DNA of 37,898 bases from a virus. Within the stretch, counting starts at the first letter, position 1. Each line of letters begins with the position of its first letter. The notes below the pieces were generated by a model. The model saw only the letters and a program-made list of their open reading frames with translations, did not search any database and had not been told where the DNA came from. Below are positions 2,473 to 35,921 of this stretch, in pieces. Location: positions 1 through 37,898 of the IMG/VR virus record IMGVR_UViG_3300013006_000003, one strand, 5' to 3'. The position numbers were made by a program, and so were the translations under genes.

Positions 2473-3357
2473 TTAGCCCTCCAAAAGGACACTGCCCGTG
2501 TTGTCCTCCAGTCTAACCCGGAATGCGTCTTCTTGAAGAAGGTATTCAGGGTCTGCCACTTGTATGCGTAGTTTGATTTCTCCTGTGGTAACAAAACTAA
2601 TCGTAGAAATCATCGCTGTATCGCTATTGCAATTAATTCCTGCTTGCGTAATTATTCCATCAATTTCATGCCATATCTCGTCATTGCCTTCCTGCCCATA
2701 ACCTTGACCTAAAATATATAATCTAGCCTTAAAGCCAGAACCAAATCGTTGCCTTAACAGCAAGGTGTGTAAGTACAAAGACAGTTCAGGAAACCCAGTA
2801 GGATAATTACTGGAGCTTTGATAACGATAATCAAATAAGCAAGTTAGCTGGCCGCTACCTGTGATTAAAGTGCTGTATTGATTCCTGAACTCATCACCTA
2901 AACTTGATGTATCTACAGTTTCACGATCTGTAGTAAACTCGTAAGATGTAATCTGCCCAACAGGTCTTAGCGTGTCATTTATTACCGACGCGGTAATTGG
3001 TATGTCTCTGGCTATTGTTACAAGATCTACTCTGCCTGTAGCTTCACCTGCTATTGATTGATCGAAAGTTGAATATAACATAATACCACCTATAAAATCT
3101 ACGTTCACATACCAGTTGCCATCAGGGAATACGCTGCCTGCGCTCCATCCTGATGCTGCAATAAAATCTAAATTTGTCCCGTCAGTTGTTTGTAATTTTA
3201 CAAAATCACCGGTAATCAAAGACCCTTCGGGAAATTCAAAACTAAATCTGTTGCTTGTTGCGGCTATATCACTAGGATTTACAACGCTTAGCAAACCTTC
3301 TGCAATGCCGCTACGAATTAGCTCAACTCTGCCTGCATTGCCTAGGTAAACAGTCAT
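2473..3357 (-). CDS. Putative tail protein, tail-tube-like fold in part
   Basis: This 294-residue protein has no assignable family by eye. Its middle (around residues 130-180: TSYEFTTDRETVDTSSLG followed by ITGSGQLTCLFDY) follows the same pattern as the two tail-tube-like proteins of this genome, an E/D-T-T/S stretch and then a G-S-G/A strand. That pattern suggests a tube-fold or baseplate-hub relative. It is preceded by a β-rich N-terminal region of unknown role. Its ATG overlaps the TGA of the upstream gene (ATGA), so translation is probably coupled, and it sits between the tip proteins and the fibre. A structural role at the tail tip is inferred from position. Confidence 0.65.
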   Translation of the reverse strand: MTVYLGNAGRVELIRSGIAEGLLSVVNPSDIAATSNRFSFEFPEGSLITGDFVKLQTTDGTNLDFIAASGWSAGSVFPDGNWYVNVDFIGGIMLYSTFDQSIAGEATGRVDLVTIARDIPITASVINDTLRPVGQITSYEFTTDRETVDTSSLGDEFRNQYSTLITGSGQLTCLFDYRYQSSSNYPTGFPELSLYLHTLLLRQRFGSGFKARLYILGQGYGQEGNDEIWHEIDGIITQAGINCNSDTAMISTISFVTTGEIKLRIQVADPEYLLQEDAFRVRLEDNTGSVLLEG

Positions 3358-3749
3358 AGTGTTACGCCTGTTGGTGCGCCAGTAAATTGGAACTGGATGC
3401 TAGCCTGCATTACTTCACCAACAGCACAACTTAATTCTGCGCTGGTAATGATGCAATTGCCTTGAATGAGTTTGGAACCCCAACCAAGCTTGATAGCTAG
3501 TATGTCAGACTCACTAACTACAGCAGTTTTTACCACACGCTCTAGCAGTGAAACCGGCGCTGAATCATAATAAAACACAGTGGCACTACCGCTTATAGTT
3601 CTAAGCCCTGGGACATAGCTGCGGTCACTTTCTGTTAATACTGTGGTTTCGAGCGTATCAACTGTGCTAGATACGCTCCAGTTGCTGACCTTAGCCACCT
3701 GAGTGCCGTTATAAGTCAATGTGCCGTCTTTGCCGCTGTAATACGTCAT
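3354..3749 (-). CDS. Tail-tube-like protein (second copy in genome)
   Basis: This 131-residue protein reads like a compact phage tail-tube protein. VAKVSNWSVSSTVDTLETT is followed by a PGLRTISGSATVFYYD segment and a final β-rich region. The same order occurs in the main tail tube at 12572-13306 (NWSFNITRAEIDTTT, then SYIPGFAEGDGSASVF). Its location is downstream of the J-like tip gene rather than with the tape measure, so it is more likely a tip or fibre-anchoring ring than the tube itself. ATG and TGA overlaps join it to both neighbours. The fold similarity is my pattern reading; the role is inference. Confidence 0.7.
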   Translation of the reverse strand: MTYYSGKDGTLTYNGTQVAKVSNWSVSSTVDTLETTVLTESDRSYVPGLRTISGSATVFYYDSAPVSLLERVVKTAVVSESDILAIKLGWGSKLIQGNCIITSAELSCAVGEVMQASIQFQFTGAPTGVTL

Positions 3750-21060: not shown

Positions 21061-22404
21061 TTAATAGATTCTAATGCCTGTACCGCGGCCAGCCCCAGCG
21101 TGTAGCGGGTTGAACTCACGCCATACTAGATAGCCCAATGCGTCTGTCATGTGGTCGTGCCCGCCCTCTTTATCTGGCGTGCCGTTATCGTTATAGCATT
21201 GTAACTCTAAACATTCAATCATGCGTTTGCAGGTGCTGCTGACTTGCAACCGGTGCTCCCCCTTACCGTTTTCAAGTAATGCCTGCACTGCCGCGACGCG
21301 ATCGCGCACAGGTGGATTGCTTTTAGGCGATTGGTTACTGATGCCATATTGCTCCAATATCTGAATATCCGTTTGCGTTGCATTTGTAGAACGATTGCCG
21401 CCACTAGCGTCTGGGTAGCCATAAAGCCGATGAGTTGGATATCGCCTACGAATCTCGGCACCTAATGCGTCGGTATCATGCGCGCCGCTGATCTCGTCGA
21501 TTATTAATAAACCTTTACCGCTACGAATGCCAATAACCGCCGACATGTTGCCGATGTTAAAGTCAACGCCAATACGCAATGGTTCTTCACTGTAATCCGC
21601 CAATTGCGTTACTACATGTTTAACCCTATCAAACCTGTCGTAAACAGTGCCAGTCGTAAGGTTAATAAACTCGCCATCAAGATATGCACGTAATAAGTTT
21701 GGGTCGTAGTTAGCCTGCAACCGCTCAATAAAATCAGCCGGTAAGTGCGGATTATCAGCAGTGCGCATCTTGATCAGCTTTCGATCAGTACGTGATAATG
21801 CGTCCTCACTGGCAAACGTATTAAACATCCAACGGAATCCCTCTGGAGTGGATGCAGCGCCAAATTGCCTTATGTTGCCAGCACGTAAGCGACCAAGGAT
21901 TTTGGGAAATGCACGACTCGCGATAGATGGCGCAACAGTATCGATCTCATCTGCTAATACCCACGCAAGGTTCAAACCAATAATACGTGTCCAGTTCTCA
22001 AAGCTACGGCATAGGATCTTGGTATCACCTAACGGTAAATGCAACACATATTCAGGTAATGGGCTAGCGCGATAAGAATATGGGATATTGTAGGACTCAA
22101 GAAAAGCATCAAAGTCATTTACAAAAATGTCCCGAATCAGCGGACCAGTGGGCTCTAGCACGCAGCCAATAAAGCCTTGGTTAGCTGCTGCAAGATGTAC
22201 CGCTTTAGCGCATAACGCTCTGGTCTTGCCTGCGCCATAGCCTGCTGATACGCCAAGGATTTGGGTTGTATGGTCATTTACAAAATCAAGCTGGCCTGGA
22301 TGCAAATCAGCTTGGATTTGTCTTAATGTATCAGGTAAATCAAATGTTTCAATAAATGTTTGGTTTAATTCAATTTGTGCTAGCCGTTTAAGAATCTTCG
22401 ACAT
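21061..22404 (-). CDS. terL: Terminase large subunit
   Basis: This 447-residue packaging motor has a Walker A (SAGYGAGKT, about 53-61), a Walker B (WVLADEID, 148-155) and a coupling motif region (FGAASTPEGF). The C-terminal RNase H-like nuclease follows, with Asp281 in RIGVDFNIGN, Asp332 in GYPDASGG and Asp421 in GGHDHMTDALGY. All three acidic nuclease positions are present. The nuclease cuts concatemers and the ATPase pumps DNA through the portal. It overlaps the small subunit by 17 bp. Whether packaging is cos or headful cannot be decided here. Confidence 0.95.
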   Translation of the reverse strand: MSKILKRLAQIELNQTFIETFDLPDTLRQIQADLHPGQLDFVNDHTTQILGVSAGYGAGKTRALCAKAVHLAAANQGFIGCVLEPTGPLIRDIFVNDFDAFLESYNIPYSYRASPLPEYVLHLPLGDTKILCRSFENWTRIIGLNLAWVLADEIDTVAPSIASRAFPKILGRLRAGNIRQFGAASTPEGFRWMFNTFASEDALSRTDRKLIKMRTADNPHLPADFIERLQANYDPNLLRAYLDGEFINLTTGTVYDRFDRVKHVVTQLADYSEEPLRIGVDFNIGNMSAVIGIRSGKGLLIIDEISGAHDTDALGAEIRRRYPTHRLYGYPDASGGNRSTNATQTDIQILEQYGISNQSPKSNPPVRDRVAAVQALLENGKGEHRLQVSSTCKRMIECLELQCYNDNGTPDKEGGHDHMTDALGYLVWREFNPLHAGAGRGTGIRIY

Positions 22405-22867
22405 CGACTAACTGCTCACCTGTTTTTGATTGTATTCGCAATAATAAATTACGTTCCTGTTCTGGTGATAGCTCAGATTCTGCTAATGCCTGCACTGCCA
22501 GTTCAACCCCTTCCTGCCTAGCGCGAACGATTGCAGCATTATCACTGTAATGTTTACGAAATGCAGGCGAATGCGTGAGCATCCACTGTGCATCTTTAGT
22601 GCTGCCTTCATCTGCTGCCTTTGCAATAATATTAGCCAGCCGCATTCCACCTTTAGCGCGACCTTCATCAATAGCTTGCAAAAGCAGAATTTCTAGCTGT
22701 GTGCCTTTATCTGTTTTAGCGTTGGCAATCCATTCATTTAGTGCTCGATATGAGACGCCAACAGCGGCTGAGATGTGCTCTAACGGCCCGCCAAATTCAG
22801 ATAAAATACGCACCTTTTCTATAAGTTCATAATTGAGCTTATAGTGTTTGCGCATTAAATTAGCCAT
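22388..22867 (-). CDS. terS: Terminase small subunit
   Basis: This 159-residue protein has an N-terminal helix-turn-helix (ILSEFGGPLEHISAAVGVSY followed by ALNEWIANAK), a central helical oligomerisation region and an acidic C terminus (EQLVDVEDS), the standard arrangement for DNA-recognising small terminases. Immediate overlap with the large subunit supports the call. It would bind the packaging site, which is often in or near its own gene. Confidence 0.88.
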   Translation of the reverse strand: MANLMRKHYKLNYELIEKVRILSEFGGPLEHISAAVGVSYRALNEWIANAKTDKGTQLEILLLQAIDEGRAKGGMRLANIIAKAADEGSTKDAQWMLTHSPAFRKHYSDNAAIVRARQEGVELAVQALAESELSPEQERNLLLRIQSKTGEQLVDVEDS

Positions 22868-22914: not shown

Positions 22915-23142
22915 TCAGCCGATACTGCACGCGCCATTGCCTTGGGCGGGTTCCATGTGGAATGCTTCATCTAATAAATCTAGGACGGTTTGGTAAGCAG
23001 CAATCAAATCAATCAGCTCAGCAGCATCCAATGGCTCGCCGTCATCTTGCGCGTTATCCCGCACGGCAGCAGCTACAGCGGCTGCTTCCCCCATCAGGTG
23101 GTGCAGACGTTCAATCACTGGTGCTTGTTTGGCTGAGGGCAT
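22915..23142 (-). CDS. Hypothetical protein before the terminase genes
   Basis: The 75-residue product from ATG 23142 (MPSAKQAPVIERLHHLMG) is helical, rich in Ala and acidic residues, with a DAAELIDLIAAYQTVLDLLD helix. A TTG at 23187 would add 15 residues. No ribosome site separates the options and no family is recognised. Its position between the repeat region and the small terminase fits a packaging or late-regulatory accessory, but this is only positional. Confidence 0.55.
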   Translation of the reverse strand: MPSAKQAPVIERLHHLMGEAAAVAAAVRDNAQDDGEPLDAAELIDLIAAYQTVLDLLDEAFHMEPAQGNGACSIG

Positions 23143-23202: not shown

Positions 23203-23470
23203 GTTTCTTACGCTTCTTACGGTCTCTTACGGTAAGCGTAAGACTAAGATCACCCGCCAGCACAGTGATTTTCCTCTTTCTTACGTTTCTTACGGTAAAA
23301 AAGGTATATAGATAGACTAGAGAAGCAAAAAAATAAAAGGTGTTTCATTTTATTTTTTTTATTTTCTATTTATAGAGAGCTATACCTTGAAAAGCGTAAG
23401 AAGCGTAAGAAGCGTAAGAAATGAGTGGTGGCAAGGGTTTTCAGTCTTACGGTCTCTTACGTTTCTTACG
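23203..23470. repeat. Iteron-like CTTACG repeat region with AT-rich core (origin candidate)
   Basis: The hexamer CTTACG starts at 23207, 23216, 23226, 23280, 23289, 23446, 23456 and 23465. Its complement CGTAAG starts at 23237, 23395, 23404 and 23413. Within clusters the spacing is 9-10 bp, and the units usually read TTCTTACGG/C. The clusters flank a strongly AT-rich core (about 23295-23390) that also has an outer inverted pair, AAGGTATA near 23301 and TATACCTT near 23381. Direct iterons, dyad symmetry and an AT-rich stretch beside the primase-helicase gene are what a replication origin looks like. A regulatory or termination role is also possible, since the region separates the primase gene from the late genes. 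It is the longest non-coding stretch in the window. Confidence 0.75.
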
Positions 23471-25952
23471 CTTGTATGGCTTCTAACGGTATTTTGACGG
23501 CACGACCTGACATACCAGAGCCTTTGAAATAAATTACGCCAGCTTTTACAGCGTTAGGAATACGAGCCAAAATCACGGACCAACAATTTGCCCAGGCCGT
23601 ATCACGCAAGATATTGCCGATTGCGTCGGCAGTATTTGACACGTAGATGGCGGCCTCCTCGGCTTTGATGCCATTACGCCCAAGCACTGCCTGTGCCTCG
23701 TTGGCGCCGACGTGAATGTCGGTTGCATGGTTCAGCGCAATATCTATCAGCTCGCCAATGGTACGGGTTACGGCCTTGTCACCTTCAACGCGGAATTGAT
23801 GCTGGAGGATCTTTTGAAGGCAACGCTTTTCATCTGATATTTCAACTGATTGGCTGTAAGACTCCCAGTTGTTTTGCTCAATTAATTTCCATGCTTGATC
23901 ACGGGTTACAACTTCAGAAGATTGTAACGACCATGCACCAGCAAGTAAGGTGCCATATTGATCACCAAGCCGTTGGCTGTCAAATACTTCAGCGGCGGCA
24001 CGGGTAAAGATCGCAATTGATTGGCGTATGATTGGTATTAATGCAATTGTACGCGCTTGTAACCGACGGCCAATTGCATCGCTTATGTATTTATCAAGGT
24101 CGCGGTCTAATGATTCCCAATGAGCTAAACGTTCAGCTTTTGGTATCTCATTGTGGCTGCGTAATGTTAATTGTGCAAATCTCGATTTATCAGCTCCTTG
24201 CTTTAATGCGGTGGCAATAGATGACATCATAAACATACTGCGAATGGTGTAACGCTGGGTATCACCTTCTGGGCTGCCTTTCAGTGTATGCGCTCTTGAT
24301 TCACTAGATGCGACACGCGCAAGGCCAAGTATTGCTTGCATACGTGCTTGATCGTTGCGTTCGTTTGATTCGGCTTCATCAAATACAACAGGCAAGGCAT
24401 CAGCACGTAAGGCTTGACGGATACCAGGTTCAGTTGTGTTGCCGGTAACGATTAAACCCATATCACCTAATAATGGCGTTACATAACGCGCAAGCACTGC
24501 TGACTTACCAGAGCCAGCGGATGCTGTCAGCCATACATGGGGGCGCCAATCCAATGCACCGCAGATGGGGCCTAGCACTACCCAACCGGCAAGCAGTAGG
24601 CCAGATGCAGGCACTTCCCAGTGGAAGCGTTCTGCTAATTCAGCAATTGAAAAGGCTTCATTATCGGTTAATGGCTCGGCACCAGCGCAGCCACGTAAGG
24701 CGCTAAGGCGTTGATATAGGTACGGGCTGCCGTTGATCCCATCACGTATGGGCCGATTTATGCCATTAACAACTAATTTATCGCCGAGGTGTAAGACAGA
24801 TTGCTTTTGATCCCACCATGCACCACGGCCACGGATGCGATCAGGTGAGTAAACTCCAATATCAGCCTGGCGTGCAAATAGGCTAGATGCGGCGGCGGTC
24901 CAGTTTACACCAACTTTTGATGGGTATAACGATTCCCAATAAGGCAACGGCGCTAGTGCTACTAGGTTTACACCTGAGTGAGCTGAACGTGAAAGGCGTG
25001 TGACCTGGCCGGTGCTATGGGGTTGGTAATAGTAAGCATCAGCATCAAACCCGAGGCATAGGAATGATTCATCGGCTTTCGGTAAAGGTGGCGGCTCTAG
25101 TGCAGGTTCCGGTAAGGGTTCAGCTTTAATTACGGCTGGAAATTCAATCGGTGGCGTGCGGTTGGCTTTGTAATAAGCACCAGCTTCGGCTGCGGTCCAA
25201 TCGCAATCTGCAAGGTCCCAACCGCTTTCAACATCAGAAGGCGGCTGGACCATACGTATTTGATCGGCACCAGCGGCAATAAGTCGCGGCACTAATTTCG
25301 CCATTGCGTCGCGGCCTGCGTCATCAGCATCAGGCCATAACACGCATTTACGATTTGCTATTGGTGCCCAATTGGCTTTGCCATGCGCTTTGCAACCGCT
25401 AGGCCATGTAATTACTACAGCATGTGGGAACAGCTTGGCGGCTGCATCAGCGGTCTTTTCGCCTTCAACTATTAATACAGGTGCATCAGGCCGTTGGCTT
25501 AGCGAGTCAAGGTTGTACAAAGGGCGAGGCACTGGAGGTGCGGTCCACTTCCATTCGGTGCCGTTAAACCAAAGCGGTCTGATGCGCTTGCCAAGAAACC
25601 TGCAAACATAAAAATCATCGTTGTATCGCCAAACATGCTCAGCGCCTTTAGTTGGCGGCTCAGGCTTGATATTTAAGTGCTGCTCGATAAGCTTGCAGGC
25701 TTCAGGATAAGTGAGACTCGTGCGACGCATTAGCATATCCATACCACTTCCGGCGCCGCCGGATTGATCTTTACCGCCGCATTGATTGCAGAACCAAGTG
25801 CCGTTGCCTTCTAAATCATCAAACCTGTAGCGGTCTTCACCGCCACAAAGGGGGCAGGGCTGGTGCTTATCGGTGAGTTGCTTTGCTGTAAGGCCGCAAA
25901 AATGCGCCAGCAGGTCCGGCCACCTGCCTTGAGTGAGTTCTTGAATATTCAT
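23466..25952 (-). CDS. DNA primase-helicase
   Basis: This 828-residue protein combines a zinc ribbon (Cys33, Cys36, Cys55, Cys58 in CPLCGG...CNQCGG), a Toprim domain (VEGEKTA with Glu163; WPDADDAG with Asp208/Asp210), a Pro-rich linker near 275-292, and a C-terminal ATPase with Walker A (TASAGSGKS, 476-484) and Walker B (PVVFDEAE, 521-528). This is the P4-alpha/Toprim-primase plus superfamily helicase design. It should prime and unwind phage DNA while the host polymerase copies it, since no polymerase is encoded. The ATG overlaps the stop of the RHH gene, and its 3' end touches the last iteron. Confidence 0.92.
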   Translation of the reverse strand: MNIQELTQGRWPDLLAHFCGLTAKQLTDKHQPCPLCGGEDRYRFDDLEGNGTWFCNQCGGKDQSGGAGSGMDMLMRRTSLTYPEACKLIEQHLNIKPEPPTKGAEHVWRYNDDFYVCRFLGKRIRPLWFNGTEWKWTAPPVPRPLYNLDSLSQRPDAPVLIVEGEKTADAAAKLFPHAVVITWPSGCKAHGKANWAPIANRKCVLWPDADDAGRDAMAKLVPRLIAAGADQIRMVQPPSDVESGWDLADCDWTAAEAGAYYKANRTPPIEFPAVIKAEPLPEPALEPPPLPKADESFLCLGFDADAYYYQPHSTGQVTRLSRSAHSGVNLVALAPLPYWESLYPSKVGVNWTAAASSLFARQADIGVYSPDRIRGRGAWWDQKQSVLHLGDKLVVNGINRPIRDGINGSPYLYQRLSALRGCAGAEPLTDNEAFSIAELAERFHWEVPASGLLLAGWVVLGPICGALDWRPHVWLTASAGSGKSAVLARYVTPLLGDMGLIVTGNTTEPGIRQALRADALPVVFDEAESNERNDQARMQAILGLARVASSESRAHTLKGSPEGDTQRYTIRSMFMMSSIATALKQGADKSRFAQLTLRSHNEIPKAERLAHWESLDRDLDKYISDAIGRRLQARTIALIPIIRQSIAIFTRAAAEVFDSQRLGDQYGTLLAGAWSLQSSEVVTRDQAWKLIEQNNWESYSQSVEISDEKRCLQKILQHQFRVEGDKAVTRTIGELIDIALNHATDIHVGANEAQAVLGRNGIKAEEAAIYVSNTADAIGNILRDTAWANCWSVILARIPNAVKAGVIYFKGSGMSGRAVKIPLEAIQA

Positions 25953-28816: not shown

Positions 28817-28868
28817 GCAATTGAGGCTCGCGGGGTTTGATGTTGCCGTGGAATGGGATAAGCCCTGA
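28620..28868 (+). CDS. VRR-NUC domain nuclease
   Basis: This 82-residue protein from TTG 28620 (TRTEASYQSKLIKRYEGEGW) contains IQTNKPGIPDLVLMKPDQI followed by RFVEVKSASGRLSKIQAYRH. The G-x-P-D and E-V-K elements are the PD-(D/E)XK metal-binding motif of VRR-NUC nucleases, and the Q-x-x-x-x-x-x-L-R-x-x-G-F-D-V end is typical. Stand-alone VRR-NUC proteins of this size accompany SNF2-like helicases in many phages, suggesting joint action on branched or stalled DNA. The long out-of-frame overlap with the helicase is unusual. Confidence 0.88.
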   Translation: MTRTEASYQSKLIKRYEGEGWYVLKLIQTNKPGIPDLVLMKPDQIRFVEVKSASGRLSKIQAYRHEQLRLAGFDVAVEWDKP

Positions 28869-28895
28869 TTTATTAAGCATTACAACCGACTAGGG

Positions 28896-28923
28896 TTGAC
28901 AGGGGAGGCTTAGGGTGTAGGAT
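28896..28923 (+). promoter_or_regulatory. Sigma-70-type early promoter
   Basis: A perfect TTGACA (28896-28901), a 16-bp spacer and TAGGAT (28918-28923, T-A-x-x-A-T) lie in the 101-bp gap between the nuclease gene and the small early genes. Predicted initiation near 28930 would give a transcript running through the RecE/RecT/SSB/sigma genes. The quality of the -35 fits recognition by the host housekeeping sigma factor. Confidence 0.6.
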
Positions 28924-28929
28924 ATGCGA

Positions 28930-28945
28930 GCCGGAGGACACCGGC
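28930..28945 (+). promoter_or_regulatory. GCCGG/CCGGC hairpin at the transcript start
   Basis: GCCGG-AGGACA-CCGGC forms a 5-bp GC-only stem with a 6-base loop exactly where transcription should start. The loop holds AGGA, part of a ribosome site. It may stabilise the 5' end or act as a translation switch. Eight Ts follow at 28959-28966, too far away for an ordinary intrinsic terminator. Confidence 0.4.
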
Positions 28946-28969
28946 GCTATCCCTTTGCTTTTTTTTGCT

Positions 28970-29152
28970 ATGACCCTTGAGCAAATCGACGAGCTTAATT
29001 CATCGCTAATTGAATTAGTAAAATCTTATCACTTGATGGCTGATGAGATTACAGAAGAACAACTGGAATCATTTGCTGATAACCATCCGTTAGCTGATGT
29101 GTTGTTTGAAGCTGAAGCTTACCTTGAGCAAATGGAGTTAATCAATGCTTAG
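28970..29152 (+). CDS. Small acidic early protein
   Basis: This 60-residue protein from ATG 28970 (MTLEQIDELNSSLIELVKSY) is strongly acidic and helical. TTG at 28955 would add five hydrophobic residues. No ribosome site is close. Its first position behind the early promoter suggests an anti-host or regulatory role, without any family match. Confidence 0.6.
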   Translation: MTLEQIDELNSSLIELVKSYHLMADEITEEQLESFADNHPLADVLFEAEAYLEQMELINA

Positions 29153-29261
29153 GTTTTTATGCGTTGCGATTGTTGCAGCTACTACTTATTTAGTGGTAAC
29201 TGAGGTTGGCAGCCAGCCTTACCCGTATGCAAATCCTGTTCCTGTTGTTTATCCTTCATGA
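29145..29261 (+). CDS. 38-residue secreted or membrane peptide
   Basis: ATG 29145 lies inside the end of the preceding gene and the frame runs to TGA 29259-29261, overlapping the next ATG (ATGA). The product is MLRFLCVAIVAATTYLVV, a single hydrophobic helix after one arginine, then a Pro/Tyr-rich tail (NPVPVVYPS). Tight packing with both neighbours supports its reality. It could be a membrane peptide acting during early infection. No family is recognised. Confidence 0.55.
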   Translation: MLRFLCVAIVAATTYLVVTEVGSQPYPYANPVPVVYPS

Positions 29262-29452
29262 CTGATTCTGACATTTATTGGACTTTTGTATCTGCTAGTA
29301 AATATGGCGGATCATTTTGGCAACGGTTAGCTGATGCTGGTTTGGCTGCTGACACACAAAACAAGCGCCGCATACTTAATGAGTTCCATGAGCTGATTGA
29401 GCATTACGGCCCATCAAAAGGTTTACATCAACTATTGCGGAATCCTAAATGA
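29258..29452 (+). CDS. Hypothetical early protein
   Basis: This 64-residue protein (MTDSDIYWTFVSASKYGGSF and a helical remainder with RRILNEFHELIEHYG) shows no catalytic motif. The amphipathic helices and the coupled position directly before the RecE-like gene (ATGA overlaps on both sides) suggest a small regulatory or accessory protein of the recombination operon. Confidence 0.6.
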   Translation: MTDSDIYWTFVSASKYGGSFWQRLADAGLAADTQNKRRILNEFHELIEHYGPSKGLHQLLRNPK

Positions 29453-31556: not shown

Positions 31557-32444
31557 ATGACTGCTGATGCAATGCGCGATTACCTAGAGGCCATCTCTAG
31601 GTATCCGTTGCTCACGACACAGCAGGAAATACAGTTGGCACGTAAAATCGCGCAGTACATGGAACTGCGCGATAACACTAGCCCAACACTTTCTGAGCAA
31701 CGGCTGATAAAAGCTGGCCTTAAGGCACGGGCTACCATGGTAAACTGCAATTTACGTTTGGTTGTACATATTGCCAAGCGTTATACAGGCAGAATTAAAT
31801 CAATGGATATGTTGGATTTATGCCAGGAGGGTAATATTGGCCTTCAACGTGCAGCAGAAAAATTTGACGCATCACGTGGATATAAGTTTTCGACCTATGC
31901 GTACTGGTGGATACGTCAATCATTAAAACGTGCTATTGATAGCAAGGAGCGCATGATAAAAATACCGATTCATATGATAGACCGTACATTTAAGGCATTA
32001 CAGATTGAAACAGAATACATGAAAGAACATGGCCGCAAGCCAAGTAAAACAGAATTAGCTCAAGTTATGGGTTTAACGATAGAGCAATTACTAGCATTAG
32101 TCGATTGCAATAGCGTTCATATTAGTTTAGACGAACTGATAACAGATGATGGCAACTCATTGCTTGATTTAATTGCTAGCCCTGAGGTGGGTATTGATTT
32201 TGATTTGGACCGTAGTAAGGAACACGTGCAGCTTGCACTGTCTTATTTAACTGATATGGAGCAAGATATGATAAATAAACGTTACCATGAAGATTTAACT
32301 TTAACAGCTATTGCAAAGGAGCATAATGTATGCCGCGAGCGTATAAGGCAACGCATGGCACGAACGCATCGTAGATTAAATAGATTAATGTCTAAATCAC
32401 ACGTCTCCACCACGGGCGCTTTGATTGTTGAAGATATAAAGTAG
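31557..32444 (+). CDS. Sigma-70 family RNA polymerase sigma factor (group 1/2-like)
   Basis: This 295-residue protein has region 1.2 (MRDYLEAISRYPLLTTQQEI, residues 6-25), region 2 (LRLVVHIAKRYTGRIKSMDM ... LCQEGNIGLQRAAEKFDASR ... KFSTYAYWWIRQSLKRAID, 66-128), region 3 (140-220) and region 4 with its helix-turn-helix (LTLTAIAKEHNVCRERIRQR, 247-266). These are host-type primary or group-2 sigma features, strongest in region 2, which closely follows cyanobacterial sigma factors; T4 gp55 is far more reduced. Region 4 is diverged, which may give a different -35 preference. It lacks the acidic region 1.1. As the last early gene it may redirect host polymerase to late promoters. Confidence 0.92.
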   Translation: MTADAMRDYLEAISRYPLLTTQQEIQLARKIAQYMELRDNTSPTLSEQRLIKAGLKARATMVNCNLRLVVHIAKRYTGRIKSMDMLDLCQEGNIGLQRAAEKFDASRGYKFSTYAYWWIRQSLKRAIDSKERMIKIPIHMIDRTFKALQIETEYMKEHGRKPSKTELAQVMGLTIEQLLALVDCNSVHISLDELITDDGNSLLDLIASPEVGIDFDLDRSKEHVQLALSYLTDMEQDMINKRYHEDLTLTAIAKEHNVCRERIRQRMARTHRRLNRLMSKSHVSTTGALIVEDIK

Positions 32445-35273: not shown

Positions 35274-35667
35274 GAGCGGTCGTAAGGTGCATGGATTGAA
35301 ATCTCACCACCTAACACGCGACTGGCGCCTGTTTGCAACTCATCGTTGATAGGGTGTTCTATCACGATTGGTGGCGGCGGTAACGGTTGCGCCTTATGCC
35401 ATTCAGCTTCAGCAGCATCCAATTTAGCTGGCAACGTCTTCTCAAACCACCATTGACGGATGGCAAATTCAAGATCACGCTCCCAGGCGGCTTTGCCGAA
35501 GCGGATCAGCCCTTTTTTACGCGCAACAGGTTAAGGATCTGGAACACCAATTGAACGACGCTATTGCTTTTGAGTGGTGACAGGCCGATCAGCTCAGATG
35601 CTGCGGCAACAACAATCCAAAAAGCTGGGTGAGATAGGAAGTCCACAAGAACTGTGGCAAACGTCAC
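35270..35667 (-). CDS. Frameshifted long form of the lysis-region membrane protein
   Basis: Slipping -1 on A-AAA-AAG (35518-35512) in the 53-aa gene bypasses its TGA (35508-35506) and opens 80 further codons ending in TGA 35272-35270, which overlaps the endolysin ATG. The extension reads like real protein: GLIRFGKAAWERDLEFAIRQ, a Trp-rich helix, a PPPP linker and VLGGEISIHAPYD. It has no ATG, GTG or TTG start of its own near its beginning; a CTG at the slip site is the only other option. The long form would be about 132 residues, join(35667..35512, 35512..35270). This is inference from frame structure. Confidence 0.6.
35506..35667 (-). CDS. Small membrane protein, holin candidate (short form)
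   Basis: GTG 35667 opens a 53-codon frame reading FATVLVDFLSHPAFWIVVAA and then SELIGLSPLKSNSVVQLVFQ. Two hydrophobic segments are separated by a short polar turn, and it ends RVKKG. The S-E-x-I-x-x-x-x-L-K-S-N-S-x-x-Q-L pattern recalls small cyanophage membrane proteins of the lysis region. Its size, hydrophobic profile and position before the endolysin support a holin or holin-partner. The final codons contain the A-AAA-AAG slippery heptamer. Confidence 0.6.
   Translation of the reverse strand: MTFATVLVDFLSHPAFWIVVAAASELIGLSPLKSNSVVQLVFQILNLLRVKKG
35512..35518 (-). promoter_or_regulatory. Candidate -1 frameshift site A-AAA-AAG
   Basis: In the zero frame the codons are GTA AAA AAG GGC TGA. 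A-AAA-AAG is the heptamer used by E. coli dnaX. Downstream, GGCT and AGCC with an inner CCG-CTT-CGG can fold into a two-step hairpin (about 35510-35488). The stop follows one codon later, so slipping is the only way to join the frames. Confidence 0.6.
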
Positions 35668-35681
35668 ACTCAGTCTAGCCG

Positions 35682-35921
35682 CTACTTCACCTCTAGCTTG
35701 CTAACCCTGTTTTCCACCTGATTCAACCGGGTAAACATCTCCCTATTGGTTTGCTTTATGTCAACATGCAAAATCTCAAGAGAATTGGCAATATGCTCCA
35801 CGGCGCTTGTCAACCTCACAATTGCGGCAGACGCCTCCTCATTACGACGAGAAAACCCGAACAGCCCCATTGCCGCCACTGAGATGGATGCCCCTAAAGC
35901 CGCTGCGAGAATTTCGATCAC
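35682..35921 (-). CDS. Membrane-anchored coiled-coil protein (lysis cassette)
   Basis: This 79-residue protein from GTG 35921 has an N-terminal membrane segment (IEILAAALGASISVAAMGLF) followed by an amphipathic helix with heptad-like spacing (VRLTSAVEHIANSLEILHVD, ending in NQVENRVSKLEVK). This layout resembles XhlA-like or spanin-like accessory lysis proteins. It lies between a 34-residue membrane peptide and the holin candidate. Its exact role is not identifiable. Confidence 0.6.
   Translation of the reverse strand: MIEILAAALGASISVAAMGLFGFSRRNEEASAAIVRLTSAVEHIANSLEILHVDIKQTNREMFTRLNQVENRVSKLEVK

Follow-up and report, generated by a model that had tools for sequence, protein, structure and literature searches.

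Why does a dense cluster of short repeats lie at the end of a primase-helicase gene in this virus, and which protein reads it? The DNA examined, a linear IMG/VR virus record of 37,898 bases, is referred to as a whole as the window. A first-pass annotation had proposed a probable replication origin at this place, and the proposal is strongly supported by the recurrence of the array in relatives, by its co-variation with the protein and by homologues on plasmids. The array is almost certainly the DNA-replication start of a freshwater cyanobacterial virus, and we give a probability of about 90% to the whole explanation, in which the array at 23207-23470 is the origin of a cyanophage-like virus and is read by the adjacent primase-helicase.

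We counted exactly 12 exact copies of CTTACG/CGTAAG (at least twelve had been claimed) and, read on one strand, 12/12 extend to the 7-mer CGTAAGA. This is far above chance: the density in the rest of the window predicts 0.13 copies per 264 bp (Poisson p ~6e-20), and 1000 dinucleotide shuffles of the region gave a top 6-mer count of 5 against the 12 observed. As the first-pass annotation described, the copies flank an AT-rich core, six iterons per side, with an A+T content of 77% in the ~105 bp that separate the inner iterons (Table 1). The spacing of 9-10 bp that it gave applies mostly within the clusters, where start-to-start distances are 9-11 bp, but larger gaps of 43, 106 and 33 bp also occur. 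Both arms of the inverted repeat ascribed to the core are present, but the core and this repeat are poorly kept among the relatives in which their conservation was looked for. The two spacers between outer and inner iterons show inverted similarity (74% over 27 nt; z 3.0 in the window). The array and the gene adjoin, as had been noted, the last iteron overlapping the stop codon at the gene's 3' end. A search of the region for structured RNA and tRNA found none. The statement that this is the largest non-coding stretch is not confirmed: two gaps between larger ORFs, at 28817-29448 (632 bp) and 35274-35745 (472 bp), hold no large ORFs and are longer than the origin region, which they outrank unless the small ORFs inside them are real.

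Table 1. Coordinates of the array, of the adjoining gene and of plasmid homologues
Feature	Position	Strand	Content or basis
Outer iterons, distal side	23207..23242		CTTACG starting at 23207, 23216, 23226; inverted CGTAAG at 23237 (-)
Outer/inner spacer, distal side	23243..23279		repeated imperfectly, in inverted form, by the spacer at 23419-23445
Inner iterons, distal side	23280..23294	+	CTTACG starting at 23280, 23289
AT-rich core, putative melting region	23295..23394		holds the inverted repeat AAGGTATA (23301-23308) / TATACCTT (23381-23388)
Inner iterons, gene-proximal side	23395..23418	-	CGTAAG starting at 23395, 23404, 23413 (all -)
Inner/outer spacer, gene-proximal side	23419..23445		inverted-copy comparison
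Outer iterons, gene-proximal side	23446..23470	+	CTTACG starting at 23446, 23456, 23465; last on the stop codon
Primase-helicase, 828 aa	23466..25952	-	domain/family matches and predicted structures
C-terminal domain (705-828), putative reader of the iterons	23469..23840	-	Y808 codon 23529-23531
Arsenophonus plasmids L332 NZ_CP123519.1, L334 NZ_CP123558.1, L336 NZ_CP123540.1	bases 3050-3500		initiator and array

The domain order of the encoded protein is a Zn ribbon with a Toprim primase of DnaG/T7 type (residues 1-~272), an MCM/Cch-like AAA+ helicase (~294-700) and a C-terminal domain (705-828). Its Pfam and PHROGs matches comprise the primase zinc ribbon (Zn_Ribbon_Prim), Toprim-like and DNA primase families. 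A first AlphaFold2 model, of the whole protein, was good at both ends only and poor in the helicase part; at the N-terminal end this model resembles DnaG and T7 gp4 primases (Z 11-13.5), with 4edg at the top of that range (Z 13.5, 160 aligned, rmsd 3.1). A second model, of residues 290-828, used a deeper alignment of 46 sequences down to 26% identity, reached a mean pLDDT of 87.5 and matches the MCM helicase 6mii (Z 15.7, 263 aligned) as well as the SCCmec protein Cch, 5dgk (Z 15.4, 425 aligned, rmsd 8.0, model residues 5-539). As MCM-like entries predominate in the match list of this model and AAA+ folds are widespread, these matches show the fold and not the function. The helicase motifs found are Walker A GSGKS, DExE and an arginine-finger-like one. 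At the level of predicted structure, the protein is a fusion of a DnaG-type primase and an MCM-like helicase, and ends in a DNA-binding-like domain.

A viral scan (IMG/VR) for relatives of this protein gave 80 loci, 77 of which had enough downstream sequence. Directly 3' of the primase-helicase stop, a short-repeat array of 5-12 copies was found in all testable relatives (77/77), and 74 of the 77 arrays exceeded all 200 dinucleotide shuffles; control stretches of the same loci peaked at 3-6 copies. The repeat varies by clade (CGTAAGA, CGTAACA, CGTTAGG, CGTGAGA, CGTTACA, CGTCAG) and the layout is kept, with 44 bp between outer and inner iterons on either side and a core of ~107 bp between the two inner sets. 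The commonest copy split is 5-6 + 6, and the core gap has a median of 97 bp (100 relatives). Conservation and co-variation of the repeat in relatives had been suggested as a check; both were found, the clade-specific repeats tracking the C-terminal domain. An array is also present in Synechococcus phage S-H1, whose protein is 64% identical (array at about 17.7-18.0 kb of MK105819.1), and in Bdellovibrio phage phi1422. Among bacterial genomes, the gene turned up in Cyanobium, Synechococcus and Vulcanococcus and, more distantly, in Burkholderiales and Sphingomonadales; most of these homologues have arrays, some shifted one to several kilobases from the gene. Five named phages that are more distant (Bordetella PBb001, Pseudomonas ZRG1 and Jeremy, Serratia MQ-4, Microcystis Mwe-JY13) showed no array in the stretch read, and the Paraburkholderia protein, used as query in a viral scan, returned zero relatives. 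The picocyanobacterial genome of Synechococcus sp. HJ21-Hayes contains four primase-helicase copies (L086, L087, L112, L118); two were examined and have genes for a DNA helicase and the terminase large subunit as neighbours, in prophage-like regions, and the neighbourhood of L112 includes recT and exonuclease VIII too.

Homologues also occur on plasmids of Arsenophonus nasoniae of 7.9-11.6 kb, where arrays of 12-14 copies of GGTAACA, CATTACA or GTTGTA come right after the gene and flank an AT-rich core. No other replication genes are listed on these plasmids, whose gene tables are incomplete. Since an autonomous replicon that small needs an origin, they provide the strongest non-experimental evidence that the gene and the array together make up a replicon. 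A protelomerase gene is listed on two of the three plasmids examined (L334 and L336) and a terminase small subunit gene on L332 and L336, and the plasmids seem to be phage-derived and satellite-like.

Over about 180 relatives, a single residue of the protein, at position 808, varies along with a single base of the repeat. In a first protein set, this residue and base 5 of the GTNN[G/C] core correspond without exception. In a held-out set of 91 unique proteins from further scans, with the repeats read from a GT anchor, arginine went with C in 38/39 (the remaining one having GTAGAC), tryptophan with G in 27/27 and tyrosine with G in 4/4; the histidine proteins divided into 13 with G, 6 with T and 1 with C, and the single K808 protein was without array. 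The prior prediction (aromatic or histidine with G, arginine with C) failed for 7 histidine proteins, and all held-out exceptions but one were histidine. In the pooled set the repeat was taken as the most frequent hexamer, oriented by GT, which left 25 loci without call. Tyrosine had G in 31/31, tryptophan G in 39/39, always as GG, and arginine C in 94/96, the two exceptions (L126 and L317) carrying GTAGAC. The single case of His808 with C is L302. A distant clade (L227-L231, L240) has His808 and iterons of the CGTAATG form, with T at base 5. With histidine at 808, the code is looser.

The leave-one-out accuracy of predicting the base is 99% from column 808 and at best 82% from any other column. 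On a tree made without the C-terminal domain there were 14 base changes and 15 residue changes; about 8 independent switches fall on well-supported branches, 7.8 of them concordant on average (p ~0.008), the number of switches being approximate because the tree is a quick one with some rows on very long branches. By domain, a partial Mantel test was strongest for residues 705-828 (r 0.22, p 0.001) and weak in the zinc and primase domains too (p ~0.04), so that domain-level statistics alone are not decisive. The co-variation suggests that the C-terminal domain binds the CGTAAGA iterons; residue 808 may contact the DNA directly, the model being one of the protein alone.

The specificity domain is specified by the last part of the gene, right beside its sites, so that a single crossover can swap reader and sites together, and such joint swaps were observed. 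L029 and L040 are 93% identical in the primase and 97.5% in the helicase but 67% in the C-terminal domain, with iterons GTAAG vs GTAAC, reader and sites having been exchanged jointly. Such linked exchange alone might give a correlation over the whole C-terminal domain, but it leaves unexplained the single outstanding column and the displaced arrays that fit. In Acinetobacter phage Acjo_20 the array lies upstream of the gene and the link is kept (R808 with GTTACA); it is also kept in the alphaproteobacterial L131 and L132 (K808 with GTTCC), whose arrays lie ~1.5 kb downstream. We consider it fairly probable, as one joint reading, that residue 808, in a terminal beta-hairpin, sets the last iteron bases (Arg/Lys C, Tyr GA, Trp GG) and that reader and origin form one mobile cassette at the 3' end of the gene; if so, replicon identity would be readable from protein sequence in a large phage/plasmid family and may diversify under pressure from competing or origin-targeting elements. 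The open-access literature that we searched holds no description of the residue-808 link, and a published account elsewhere is possible; a specificity switch by one residue is apparently undescribed before.

The behaviour of the displaced arrays also bears on a pac site, that is, iterated sites for the terminase small subunit. A weak match to this subunit lies ~350 bp off (22388-22867), pac sites are often near terS, and some small plasmids with arrays carry terS. However, in most relatives TerL is 2-3 kb further away or was not found in the sequence searched, the array stays with the primase-helicase and co-varies with it, and the displaced arrays likewise follow residue 808, all of which makes packaging a very unlikely role.

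Phage P4 alpha, which combines primase, helicase and origin binding in one protein and acts on iterated short sites, is similar by description; P4 is a satellite with two separated sites (ori/crr), unlike the arrangement here. The closest likeness is with SaPI/PICI elements (SaPIbov1 Rep, E. coli PICI), and the replicon resembles this rep-ori type but lies inside a complete phage. The two share an origin (here a probable one) immediately 3' of the gene for the initiator-helicase and two sets of short iterons that flank an AT-rich region; the C-terminal domain that reads DNA in those elements has a putative counterpart here, and primase is sometimes fused to Rep, as here (PMC6092414, PMC7581432). 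SaPI Rep was reported to read iterons downstream of its own gene via its C-terminal domain (PMC7581432), and at the PICI origins of E. coli the AT-rich region always lies between two sets of iterons (PMC6092414). In our case the likeness of the helicase to Cch and SaPI Rep is one of fold only, and strong co-variation and module swaps point to the C-terminal domain as the probable reader. Differences are also clear: SaPI/PICI are satellites without virion genes of their own whereas the window has terminase, portal, head and tail genes, the primase of SaPIbov1 and SaPI5 is archaeo-eukaryotic (AEP) and here of DnaG/Toprim type, and the arrays here mostly have 10-12 copies of a 6-7-mer in mirror symmetry, unlike those of SaPI/PICI. 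SCCmec Cch (5dgk), a relative of SaPI Rep, has the same helicase fold including the C-terminal part, and the C-terminal domain of SCCmec Cch2 binds direct repeats (AAGTG iterons) downstream of the operon; yet Cch has no fused primase and belongs to a different mobile element, and the Cch2 site has three iterons only. In PLE RepA, from a Vibrio cholerae satellite, the DNA-binding domain and iterons swap as a module, as here, and origin diversification was linked to an origin-directed nuclease; this initiator is of RepA_N type without helicase or primase, has three semi-palindromic iterons of ~30 bp, and no single-residue link is reported in the passages from which these points are taken (PMC8263062). 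The replicon type is thus already known from satellites and SCC elements; new is that a wide family of phages, infecting picocyanobacteria and others, uses it together with a DnaG-type primase, and new too, apparently, is the residue-808/iteron link.

Iterons of known plasmids can also serve copy control, so the primase-helicase might bind this array mainly for copy control or incompatibility and start elsewhere in the genome. We regard this as extremely improbable, since a conserved AT-rich core lies between mirror sets, like in PICI origins (PMC6092414), and paired repeat copies occur nowhere else in the window. An operator cluster for a regulator of the flanking genes, to which the intergenic location and the multiple inverted sites would be suited, is hardly tenable, as the array contains no promoter-like or terminator-like site, its AT-rich core is flanked at conserved spacing whatever the downstream genes, and its sequence co-varies with a domain of the helicase protein and not with a separate regulator.

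For the origin, a possible course of initiation may be drawn up. The C-terminal domain of the primase-helicase would recognise the CGTAAGA iterons, and, by analogy with SaPI Rep, the six iterons per side, in near mirror arrangement, may position two helicase hexamers. Melting of the AT-rich core would then fall to the MCM-like helicase, which would travel outward while the N-terminal DnaG-type primase lays primers. Their extension would most likely be left to the host replisome, as the scan of the window ORFs recognised no DNA polymerase. Phage S-H1 has a gene with the annotation DNA polymerase III beta subunit, the sliding clamp (L084, 9087-10136), which begins ~500 bp downstream of the primase-helicase, beyond the iteron array; it is consistent with the use of the host polymerase. 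GC skew, proposed earlier as a check, agrees in part: the cumulative curve reaches a local minimum next to the array, at 23,095; skew at third codon positions, however, has no consistent strand bias and gene orientation confounds it, so it lends weak support. We also considered an RSF1010-type oriV with ssi hairpins in the spacers and rejected it, as hairpins showed no excess over shuffles (mean z -0.7 and -0.4, below -2 in 12/109 spacers; window spacers 0.4 and -1.3); the spacer hairpin of L039 is a striking single case.

A literature search for iterons at cyanophage origins found nothing relevant. Most environmental phages have unknown origins. The family of origins described here is recognisable by its sequence in uncultivated phages, by the hundred, in Cyanobium/Synechococcus prophages and in small plasmids, with a repeat that is partly predictable from one initiator residue. 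The code makes it directly testable how initiators change origin specificity, and whether close phages that share a cell replicate independently through it.

Besides the replicon, the window encodes a phage sigma factor for RNA polymerase (31557-32444, phrog_351); genes for SSB and for RecT-like and exonuclease VIII-like proteins lie close by.
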